A stretch of DNA of 38,494 nt from a virus. The translations under genes and the position numbers were made by a program. The notes beneath the pieces were generated by a model, which did not search any database, was not told where the DNA came from, and saw only the letters and a program-made list of their open reading frames with translations. Shown here in pieces: positions 28,742 through 32,598 of this stretch; the stretch's first letter is position 1, and the number at the start of each line of letters is the position of its first letter. Where the stretch lies: IMG/VR virus record IMGVR_UViG_3300030688_000063, positions 1-38,494 of that record. One strand, given 5' to 3'.

Positions 28742-29608
28742 TTAACCTCCTAACCGTGACCGAGCGACCTCGATCAGCAAATGGTATTCTTTGCCAATCT
28801 TGGAATCCGCACCGTGCTTAATATCTACGGCGGCTAAAAATTCAGTATCAGTGCCTAAGAAGCATCCTCGTGTTACTTTTAACCCTGCTTCCGCTTTGAA
28901 TACAGTAAGCGTGCCGTTTTCACTTCCGACTTTGGAAAACCAAATTAAATGCGCATCGCCGTAGATCCATGCATCGCCGGAGATCCGTGCATTGCCGAAG
29001 ATCTGTGCCTTGCCGAAGATCTGTGCCTTGCCGGAGATCTGTGCATCGCCGTAGATCCATGCATCGCCGGAGATCTGTGCATTGCCGGAGGTCTGTACAT
29101 CGCCGTAGATCCAGGTATTGCCGGAGATCTGTGCATTGCTGAAGATCTGTGCATTGCTGAAGATCTGTGCCTTGCCGGAGATCTGTGCATTGCCGGAGAT
29201 CTGTGCATTGCCGGAGATCTGTGCATTGCCGGAGATCTGTGCATTGCTGAAGATCTGTGCCTTGCCGGAGATCTGTGCCTTGCCGGAGATCTGTGCATTG
29301 CCGGAGATCTGTGCATTGCCGGAGATCTGTGCATTGCCGGAGATCTGTGCATTGCCGGAGATCTGTGCATCGCCGGAGATCCAGGCATTGCCGGAGATCT
29401 GTGCATCGCCGTAGATCCGTGCATCGCCGTAGATCCAGGCATCGCCGGAGATCTGTGCCTCAGCACTGAAGTTATCTTCTTTTTCTACAAAACCCCCTAA
29501 ATCCCCGATAGTTACATCCGAGAAAGAAGCCAAGGCTTTAATGCGAAAAAGTTTTACACCGAAAACATTTACTATGAATTCGCTAGTCAGTTCGAATTTT
29601 TTAGACAC
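28742..29608 (-). CDS. Hexapeptide beta-solenoid protein (YdcK-like repeats)
   Basis: I place the start at GTG 29608, since GGAGGAAAGTTATC precedes it; upstream codons lack a ribosome site. The 288-residue product has a short N-terminal domain (about 1-50) with VTIGDLGGFVEKEDNFS. About 29 tandem six-residue units (GNAQIS, GDAWIY, GKAQIF) follow. The protein ends in a C-terminal cap (about 230-288). The repeats match the YdcK-type beta-solenoid, a left-handed helix related to hexapeptide transferases. No catalytic His is obvious. The cellular role in phages is not known to me. Confidence 0.85.
   Translation of the reverse strand: MSKKFELTSEFIVNVFGVKLFRIKALASFSDVTIGDLGGFVEKEDNFSAEAQISGDAWIYGDARIYGDAQISGNAWISGDAQISGNAQISGNAQISGNAQISGNAQISGKAQISGKAQIFSNAQISGNAQISGNAQISGNAQISGKAQIFSNAQIFSNAQISGNTWIYGDVQTSGNAQISGDAWIYGDAQISGKAQIFGKAQIFGNARISGDAWIYGDAHLIWFSKVGSENGTLTVFKAEAGLKVTRGCFLGTDTEFLAAVDIKHGADSKIGKEYHLLIEVARSRLGG
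28955..29464 (-). repeat. 18-bp tandem repeat array encoding the beta-solenoid
   Basis: The plus-strand unit is about GCCGGAGATCTGTGCATT, 18 bp, repeated roughly 29 times with drift toward both ends and near identity in the centre. Most units contain the palindrome AGATCT and nearly all contain GATC. Since no unit has a stop in several frames, long false reading frames appear on both strands here. Confidence 0.93.
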
Positions 29609-29726
29609 GATAACTTTCCTCCAGGATAAGATGGACCAGCACAATAATTAAATACTCAAGCAATGCGCCGTGGTCCTGGCCTCGTAGTCGGATTAGTTCG
29701 ATAAGATTCGCGGCAGGTCGGCTCAT
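29601..29726 (-). CDS. Short hypothetical protein (41 residues)
   Basis: An ATG at 29726 follows GTAGGGGTTAATT and opens a 41-residue frame whose stop overlaps the GTG start of the beta-solenoid gene by 8 bases. The sequence has a basic, helical start (NLIELIRLRGQDHGALLEYL) and a hydrophobic C-terminal stretch (LIIVLVHLIL), possibly membrane-associated. It fills what would otherwise be a gap. The overlap and ribosome site are the support. Confidence 0.6.
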   Translation of the reverse strand: MSRPAANLIELIRLRGQDHGALLEYLIIVLVHLILEESYRV

Positions 29727-31270: not shown

Positions 31271-32587
31271 TTAAAGATTTAGCACATGCATCGTAGCTAG
31301 AATGAACTCCTTTGCGGCTTCAGCATTGATCGCGTTACCGTACCCTTTTAGACGGCCTACCCGGTTTCCTTGGTCTTTACGCGGAACCTCGGCGCCGGTT
31401 TCTTGATCGGCGCGCATTCGTCCCACGCTTCCGGCAGGCCCATTAACCAACGGCTTAAGGCTGGGTTCAACTGGCCGCCACTTTCCATCTCGGCATCCGA
31501 GCCAGTCAGCCTCTCGCCAGAAGCCATTAGTCGGGCCGGCCCTACCATCTGCGCTTGCATCGGCAGTCCGTTGCGGGGGTCCGGGGCTAAACTGCCCCTT
31601 TTCTCCGCATCGTTCGCCCGTGGCGTCGCCCATCCCAGCAGCAAGGGCGCTGTCTGCCCCAGGGTCAATCCGAAGCCGTTCCCATTCCCGTGCTTCTCCT
31701 TGCATTGCTCCCGGCGTTGCTCCAACCTCACCAAGTCCTTCGGCTCGAACTCCTTGGCGGTGGGCGTCGGCCACCCCGCTAACGTTGCAACTGCACTTAA
31801 CGGCTTCCCTCGCGCATGCGCAAACCGTTCCCGGTTGAATTTGTCTGAGGCGCTTTCCGATTTCCAGTCCCGTGCTGCTGCTGTCGGCCAACCCGTTAAA
31901 ACTACCGCCTGTTTCAATGCTAATCCGCCCTCGCGCCCCGGCGGTATTTTGTCCCCCGTCCCATCGTTTGCTCGTGGCGTAGGCCAACCCGTTAAAGCTA
32001 CCGCCCCTGGCAATCGGTCCGCCCCCTGGCCTGGGCCGCCCTTCGGGCCACCCTTCGGGCCACCCTTCGGGCCATCCTGGCCGCATGGCGTGGTCCACCC
32101 AGTACGTTCTATCTCGGATGTGCGGCGCACCGACGCCCGCAGCCGGAAACGCGAGACACCCATAGGCGTAGTCCAGGCTTTCCATGTCAGTGTGTACAAG
32201 GTCGATCCAAGGTTCTGAATCCTTGCCCGCAACTTGCTCGCCAAGGATAAGCTCAGGAGCGCACTGTTTAATGAGCCAAAGCCACGCAGGCCACAAGTGC
32301 CGCTCGTCAGCAAACCCGCCTCTTTTGCCTGACGCGCTGAAAGGCTGGCAGGGGCAGCTTCCGGTCCATATAGGCTTATCTTCGGGCCACCCTGCAAGCT
32401 TGAGGGCATACGACCAGACCCCGATACCGGCGAAAAAGTGACACTGAGTAAATCCGATAAGGTCGATAGGCTTAACGTCTTCAATACTTCGTTCATCTAC
32501 GTATCCTTTAGGTATCCGCCCCGCATCGATTAAATTACGCAGCCACTGCGCTGCGTAAGGATCATGCTCGTTATAGTAATTAGCCAT
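31271..32587 (-). CDS. DNA (cytosine-5) methyltransferase
   Basis: I use ATG 32587; a TTG two codons earlier is possible. The 438-residue enzyme methylates cytosine in DNA using S-adenosylmethionine. It shows motif I FFAGIG at 51-56, motif [11 protein letters not shown] with catalytic Cys80, and motif VI as EQV (E117). A motif VIII-like [11 protein letters not shown] follows, and motif [16 protein letters not shown] is near the end. The long middle is the target-recognition region with several LA[DY]-type repeats. No restriction endonuclease is seen nearby, so it is probably a solitary protective methylase. A second frame covers most of it. The start has no clear ribosome site. Confidence 0.9.
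31357..32496 (-). CDS. Long ORF nested in the methyltransferase gene, GW(P/T)TP-repeat protein
   Basis: This 379-residue frame lies wholly inside the methyltransferase gene in another phase. Its ATG at 32496 has an AAAGGATACGTAG ribosome site, better than that of the host gene. The protein has a distinct plan: an N-terminal [36 protein letters not shown], then about five GW(P/T)TP-type units ([20 protein letters not shown]). It ends [21 protein letters not shown] recognise very similar proteins, including the final [14 protein letters not shown] block, from other proteobacterial genomes and phages, which argues against chance. The function is unknown. Confidence 0.6.
32029..32076. repeat. 12-bp tandem repeat within the methyltransferase region
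   Basis: The unit CCCTTCGGGCCA repeats about four times. In the methyltransferase frame it gives EGWP repeats and in the nested frame GGPK repeats. Both frames are kept because the unit length is divisible by three. Confidence 0.85.
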
Positions 32588-32598
32588 TTGCAAGAGGT

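Follow-up and report, generated by a model that had tools for sequence, protein, structure and literature searches.

The window analysed here is the whole of IMG/VR virus record IMGVR_UViG_3300030688_000063 (38,494 bases). Its minus strand carries, at 31271..32593, a 440-residue frame for a cytosine-C5 methyltransferase, hereafter alpha, whose listed start is TTG, with an ATG also present at 32587. A second frame of 379 codons, hereafter beta, is nested in the +1 phase within the alpha gene at 31357..32496 (−). It starts at ATG 32496, 7 nt behind an AAAGGA ribosome-binding-like site (32504..32509, −) that is supported by the sequence and by the starts of homologues. An earlier note, made from the letters alone, had placed the nested frame and its start at these positions, and both the list of open reading frames and the sequence confirm this. 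The same note had taken the large frame for a methyltransferase, which is borne out by matches to PF00145 (E=3.4e-11, profile 64-159) and phrog_363 (E=2.2e-78, profile search) and by the alpha family profile A2, which detects M.HhaI with E=1.4e-13. Beta matches phrog_1008 (E=2.7e-35) and phrog_31772 (E=6.8e-31) in profile searches, and tblastn at E 1e-5 gives matches in 200 phage records for the nested protein and in 380 for the methyltransferase.

Alpha displays motifs I-VIII and X of a cytosine-C5 methyltransferase. The catalytic motifs I, IV, VI and VIII are all present, as judged from PF00145 and alignment A2, in which motif I was identified by eye. The stretch from motif I to motif VIII (FFAGIG, PCQPFS, GEQV, IRDR) occupies 32090..32437 (−), where alpha is overprinted by the leader and the N-terminal domain of beta. 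It is followed by a variable region with GLAD/GVAD readings (31538..32089, −) and, according to alignment A2, by the ten residues of motif X (31328..31357, −), at which the nested frame stops. No motif-IX-like block was seen by eye in alpha in alignment A2, such a block being situated in the other frame; a 26-residue motif IX profile gave no match on alpha but is too insensitive for this to carry weight.

The beta protein can be divided into a leader (about residues 1-42; 32371..32496, −), an N-terminal domain (residues 44-132; 32101..32367, −), an array of five W-P-T-P modules and a motif-IX-like block. The earlier note had counted about five GW(P/T)TP units; past residue 130 there are indeed five W(P/T/A)T(P/A) units, beginning at W134, W171, W203, W242 and W289. 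Its proposal that the repeats in the two frames are phase-shifted readings of the same DNA holds as well, alpha reading four of the five as GLAY, GLAD, GVAD and GMGD. Each module has a relative in another locus: module 1 (WTTPCGQD..., residues 134-170; 31987..32097, −) shares 70% identity with a module of L027, module 2 (residues 171-202; 31891..31986, −) 91% and 97% with modules of L186 and L020, and module 3 (residues 203-241; 31774..31890, −) 74% with a module of L082. Module 4 (residues 242-288; 31633..31773, −) is 72% identical to a module of L072 and aligns with the single-chain enzyme of L443, while module 5 (residues 289-318; 31543..31632, −) is 67% identical to a module of L294 and 66% to one of L352. 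The motif-IX-like block (residues 341-360; 31417..31476, −) stands out by fixed third bases and lies at the same place as motif IX in L443.

A first set of homologous loci comprised L001-L257 and the window (258 records, 210 distinct genes; L019 repeats the window). All 258 loci have the nested frame, always in the +1 phase, with more than 80% overlap in 252. Gene 58 of the laboratory phage N15 shows the alpha/beta organisation as well. Among the six others, L035, L126 and its duplicate L201 have one in-frame stop in alpha with beta open, L084 is frameshifted in both frames, and in L146 and L238 the beta frame extends past the end of alpha. Defects also occur in the larger group: L169 and L214, which are duplicates, carry one alpha stop while beta stays open, alpha is frameshifted in L143, and a frameshift in L051 breaks both frames. 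The alpha stops in L035, L126 and L169 may represent either natural alpha-null alleles or sequencing errors. The openness of the nested frame in this set is biased, since its loci were either found via beta (L001-L178, except L019 and L013-L018, phage records chosen from nested-protein matches) or, though found via alpha, are near relatives (L179-L257).

Due to this bias, ten distant phage records were added, which were our own choice from a spread of matches and not a random sample. Their hosts are Xanthomonas, Escherichia (two), Cronobacter, Erwinia, Lactobacillus, Mycobacterium, Gordonia, Bacteroides and Stenotrophomonas. The alpha match covers the catalytic part alone in eight of them and includes the C-terminal end in Cronobacter phage JC01 and Erwinia phage pEp_SNUABM_08. 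All ten possess a frame with beta features in the +1 phase, which is nested to 96-100% in eight. In Upyo (L453) the two frames overlap by half, and in Rita (L452) beta is truncated, with the later modules and motifs IX and X in the alpha frame. L451 and L455 have a degenerate motif-IX block. The earlier note would have dismissed beta as a chance frame if homologous methyltransferases did not keep it open; they do keep it.

The length of the nested frame was compared with that in genes whose methyltransferase codons had been permuted among their own synonymous positions. In the window the longest +1 frame has 379 codons, against a mean of 131 and a maximum of 271 in 200 shuffles. For the 210 distinct homologues the mean longest +1 frame is 333 codons observed and 170 shuffled; the observed length was never reached by shuffles in 103 genes and was reached by at least 5% of the shuffles in 34. 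A chance open frame, held by codon bias and the alpha amino-acid sequence, thus has in its favour that the +1 frame is long even after shuffling, and since length is not unusual in 34 of the 210 genes, it is not decisive in every one of them.

Substitutions, however, speak clearly against chance. In 27 independent gene pairs with 80-100% alpha identity, differences at alpha codon positions 1/2/3 follow the pattern of an ordinary gene outside the nested frame (0.063/0.046/0.163 before it and 0.037/0.025/0.139 after it). In the variable region (0.219/0.130/0.164) and the C-terminal overlap (0.059/0.021/0.043), the fastest-changing position is alpha position 1, which is the wobble base of beta. 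With the few SS sites excluded from the substitution analysis, dNN/dNS of the nested frame in motifs IV-VIII, the variable region and the C-terminal overlap amounts to 0.41, 0.36 and 0.20 for the 27 pairs, 0.54, 0.45 and 0.37 for 62 pairs, and 0.55, 0.48 and 0.35 for 67 pairs. Before and after the frame the values are 0.79 and 1.84 for the 27 pairs, and 1.04 and 1.00 for the 62; the flanks give 1.02 and 0.92 for the 67. The +2 frame shows no signal of constraint in the same three regions of the 67 pairs (dNN/dNS 1.26-1.52). Calculated in 15-codon bins, the rate of changes that alter beta while leaving alpha the same is 0.54-0.85 up to nested residue 42, 0.06-0.44 over residues 43-387 and 0.41-0.51 beyond. 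Alpha itself is constrained in its motif I-VIII part (dNN/dSN 0.17-0.20), whereas its reading of the variable middle is nearly neutral filler (0.80-0.92; 0.89 in another set).

Moreover, 26 conserved alpha columns have a fixed third base, defined as one third base above 0.90 where pooled usage is below 0.70. They lie at beta residues 52-127 and 342-353, and include GTT (1.00, alpha V375), CCC (1.00, alpha P377), GCG (1.00), CCT (0.98) and CCG (0.98). All four bases occur among the fixed third positions, each as beta requires, and none of the columns fixed in this sense falls within residues 1-48 or beyond the nested frame. The nested frame is therefore real and under purifying selection: the comparison of synonymous and non-synonymous rates proposed in the earlier note was run for both frames, and substitutions conserve the nested frame in addition to that of the methyltransferase. 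A chance frame is rejected by the substitution tests and by the fixation of third bases, and relatives encoding the same protein free of overprinting (see below) argue in the same direction, which leaves this explanation a negligible probability.

Constraint on beta does not begin at its start codon. Over about the first 28 residues nested dNN/dNS is 0.56 (CI 0.25-1.35) for the 27 pairs and 0.99 for the 62, and the 67 pairs give 0.96 for the leader. A conserved domain in the start region was thus ruled out: save for a favoured start codon, residues 1 to about 42 lack nested constraint and form a leader. Among the 210 distinct genes, an ATG is found at nested position 7 in 149, at position 1, as in the window, in 76 and at position 11 in 70. 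An ATG with a Shine-Dalgarno-like match between nested positions -6 and 48 is present in 175 of the 210 and absent in 35. The start codon and leader are variable, while the domain past residue 43 is constant. The ATG at nested position 7 is favoured, the aspartate codon there being GAT in 166 of 200 cases, compared with 50 of 190 at D11.

Across 307 distinct beta proteins, one to seven W-P-T-P units are found apiece; in the group of the window the N-terminal domain usually accounts for the first of them. For comparison of modules the loci were divided into three groups, which we named 'A_proteo', 'Acin' and 'Firm/other' after the query that found them. Single-linkage clustering merged most modules, so that pairwise comparison alone was used. 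Between groups, 139 ungapped pairs with at least 60% identity over 24 residues were found among 1086 modules in the beta reading, with a mean identity of 69.8%, as opposed to 31.6% in the alpha reading of the same DNA. The same search with the alpha readings of the 1086 modules returned one such pair. In the 13 pairs listed, modules 82-88% identical stand in proteins whose N-terminal domains are 22-46% identical, and module 5 of the window is about 66% identical to modules of both other groups ('Firm/other', L294; 'Acin', L352). By these comparisons, distant phages have modules in common in the beta reading alone, as would be expected if recognition cassettes were exchanged, and the modules may well bind DNA.

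The relatives fall into three architectures. In type A, to which the window belongs, alpha carries motifs I-VIII, the filler and motif X, and beta is nested. In type B, alpha ends after motif VIII and beta consists of the N-terminal domain, modules, motif IX and motif X, so that the modules, IX and X are free of alpha overprinting. Its members are Gordonia phage Upyo (L453) and the viral contigs L277, L290, L293 and L295; L294 belongs here in part, no alpha having been seen beside its beta. In type C, motifs I-VIII, modules, IX and X form a single chain. The viral contig L443, in which PF00145 spans profile positions 1-293 of 324, from motif I through the IX-like block, is its sole clean case. 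L292, L417 and Rita (L452) are single chains that keep the beta N-terminal domain and first module or modules in the other frame, and one frameshift may therefore explain them.

A regular-expression screen of 125 further loci, duplicates included, recognized the type A pair in 99. The remaining 26 were assigned by eye: 14 are type A (alpha is frameshifted in L279; L282 is the same contig as L429; L305 is truncated by the end of the locus), four are type B, one is L294 and two are single chains (L292, and L297, which equals L417). L280, L286 and L329 resemble plain frameshift alleles running alpha into the end of beta, L261 looks like a deletion remnant and L303 was left unassigned. Homology across architectures is detectable: in one pairwise BLASTP comparison, window beta residues 242-372 match residues 223-342 of L443 with 48.9 bits (E=8e-11), and the match of beta to L417 is weaker (E=3e-4). 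When profile A3 was run on 22 proteins, it detected four beta proteins of type B (E 3.9e-14 to 6.5e-31), L443 (1.7e-7) and L292 (9.8e-7), and neither L417 nor any ordinary methyltransferase.

Since relatives carry the modules and the IX-like block either in a second gene ending in motif X or between motifs VIII and X, beta is most likely the second half of a split cytosine-C5 methyltransferase, contributing target-recognition modules and motif IX, while alpha would contribute motifs I-VIII and X. A separate protein, such as an anti-restriction protein or an inhibitor, that merely overlaps the methyltransferase is very unlikely. Genes of this kind are common in phages, and the function of beta is read here from sequence alone; however, in L443 the same modules and IX block form part of the methyltransferase chain, placed in frame between VIII and X, in type B they are linked to X, and beta has no significant match in Pfam, NCBIfam or PADLOC, including their anti-restriction and defence profiles. 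Of the functions suggested in the earlier note, the methyltransferase partner is thus retained and specified as the second half of the enzyme, whereas the inhibitor and the protein acting on host restriction found no support in these family searches.

A different division of labour, in which beta supplies motif IX and a docking domain only and recognition resides in the variable region of alpha, has a precedent in the two-chain enzyme M.EcoHK31I, whose predicted target-recognition domain (TRD) is placed in the large subunit in the accessible text of its description (PMC3404938). For the window such a division appears unlikely: the variable region of alpha evolves almost neutrally, module identity between groups is seen in the beta and hardly in the alpha reading, and the type B relatives and L443 hold modules with no alpha reading over them. 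Recognition by beta is favoured on these grounds, which sets the window apart from M.EcoHK31I in that the recognition-like modules lie in the nested subunit.

The existence of single-chain relatives (L443, L417, L292 and L452) could also indicate that ribosomes pass from alpha into beta by programmed frameshifting, yielding a fused chain in place of a product with an internal start. Such a shift after motif VIII would skip the N-terminal domain, which is nevertheless under selection (dNN/dNS 0.41-0.55), and an ATG at nested position 7 is favoured; this route is highly improbable. Selection on the N-terminal domain favours a separate beta chain over a frameshift fusion as the only product.

With two frames, both under selection, and the motifs divided between them, the preferred reading is that of one enzyme encoded in two overlapping frames, in which beta sets the target and phage DNA is protected; we give it a probability of roughly 0.83. 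The alpha frame would yield the catalytic half, made up of motifs I-VIII, a poorly constrained linker and motif X. The nested frame, presumably translated from its own internal ATG, would yield the beta half, in which the N-terminal domain is followed by the W-P-T-P array at the place of target recognition and by motif IX. Alpha and beta would then assemble into the active enzyme, beta determining the methylated sequence, probably with one target per module. Methylation of the phage DNA by this complex could protect it from host restriction.

Structure prediction adds detail for the N-terminal domain. An AlphaFold model of beta alone (144 sequences) reached a pLDDT of 61 and a pTM of 0.30 and predicts a helix at residues 75-96 and a hairpin at 101-123, the mean pLDDT over residues 81-120 being 84-90. 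The model of the single chain L292 (77 rows) has a pTM of 0.64 and a good catalytic half; its module region lies mostly below pLDDT 50, and the stretch from motif IX to just before motif X at about 30-60. Foldseek places C5 methyltransferases at the top of its matches to this chain, with 169-181 columns aligned in the first twelve. Neither model displays a TRD fold. Searches against the PDB gave no match for the beta profile and three insignificant ones for L293. Motif IX in beta is assigned by homology to L443, the direct profile comparison being negative: the 26-residue profile touches LMGF/LMGLP of ordinary C5 methyltransferases at the right place but does not score them above shuffled sequences, one of which had the best score, and hhalign found motif X alone (probability 3.6).

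The small subunit of M.EcoHK31I is read from an alternative frame inside the gene of the large subunit, and the nesting seen here in the +1 phase (258/258 loci, above 80% overlap in 252) resembles it. This enzyme (YGGCCR) is the closest known one by its described organisation. In the accessible texts it is a natural two-chain C5 methyltransferase (PMC3404938, PMC3439449), whose large subunit comprises motifs I-VIII and X while its small subunit has IX (PMC3404938). The window corresponds to this on both sides, alpha having I-VIII and X without IX (PF00145, alignment A2, M.HhaI match) and beta the putative motif IX. M.EcoHK31I is known from type II restriction-modification in E. coli (listed in PMC6456624, and likewise only listed in PMC4574080), whereas pairs of the window type are spread over phages of many hosts. 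M.AquI (CYCGRG) is likewise a split C5 methyltransferase of two chains, but it has motif X in the small subunit, unlike the window, where X is in alpha and the genes overlap almost fully; among the relatives, X is found in beta in L277, L290, L293, L295 and L453.

The multispecific C5 methyltransferases of the Bacillus phages SPbeta and phi3T have, between motifs VIII and IX, a number of target-recognition units that can be exchanged. The window shares with them the phage origin and several units resembling target-recognition ones. However, they are single chains, while in the window the enzyme appears split, no IX-like block being seen by eye in the alpha chain. Furthermore, the W-P-T-P modules (PTPRAN, PTAAAR, PTPTAK, ATPRAN and TTPCGQ, by eye) deviate from P(STCA)PT(ILV)(TASV), given in the accessible text of PMC2413257 as the C5 TRD 'TL' consensus ahead of motif IX.

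In the PHROG listing phrog_1008, phrog_31772 and phrog_363 are all labelled 'DNA methyltransferase', and it contains no statement that the first two are the second frame of the third. Both frames are annotated as methyltransferases in PhiXhv-5 and Paenibacillus phage BN12, so that the nested ORF is not wholly unannotated; neither these records nor the literature searched state its role. The methyltransferase gene of Edwardsiella phage eiAU has been described with no second frame mentioned in the accessible part of that paper (PMC3025963), and PMC8903798, on overlapping genes in viruses, has no word beginning with methyltransferase or methylase. No description of this phage family was found in the literature searched, whose scope excluded most subscription papers and all bioRxiv preprints. 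What is new here is the breadth of the overprinted pair, the module array and the proposed placing of recognition in the hidden frame.

Extending this to phages at large, we consider it an even chance that many phage genes annotated as 'DNA cytosine methyltransferase' encode only a catalytic half, with hidden +1 recombining cassettes that each have their own target, render the enzyme multispecific and are exchanged across bacterial phyla, the alpha reading over them being a nearly neutral linker. If so, many phage cytosine methyltransferases would stand in databases without their recognition half, and an annotated coding sequence cloned recoded or alone would therefore give an inactive or unspecific protein. 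Predictions of specificity would be aimed at the wrong frame. The pair would, in addition, be an overlap of wide occurrence on one strand with both frames serving one enzyme, including a region where the hidden and not the annotated frame is under selection. Annotation easily overlooks overlaps this long, and mutations that are silent in one frame allow the claim to be tested here; the cassettes would provide a means to test the swapping of DNA recognition between phages.

Several minor observations were made at the loci. In L261 (Dunaliella viridis virus SI2, a Caudoviricetes; 2389-2862) alpha is without catalytic motifs, while the last module, the motif IX block and motif X persist in two overlapping frames, which resembles a deletion remnant. 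In Gordonia phage Upyo (L453, 1313-2575) gp53 is annotated from 1877 but beta is open from 1313, inside gp54, so that the annotated start may be too late. Escherichia phage Delraymugoa (L448; Krischvirus, Straboviridae) has the overprinted pair between the genes for the large and small subunits of ribonucleotide reductase. In EBPR siphovirus 2 (L018, 1135-3630) alpha extends to 840 codons, about 370 residues being inserted immediately ahead of the PCQ motif, an intein-like position; the insertion also interrupts the nested frame, and the beta match resumes past it. In the window itself, a beta-solenoid repeat protein (PF18836 YdcK repeat, E=1.3e-26) is encoded at 28742-29644 (−), and the opposite strand of its gene contains a 183-codon open frame (28949-29500, +) that is probably a mirror of the repeats.
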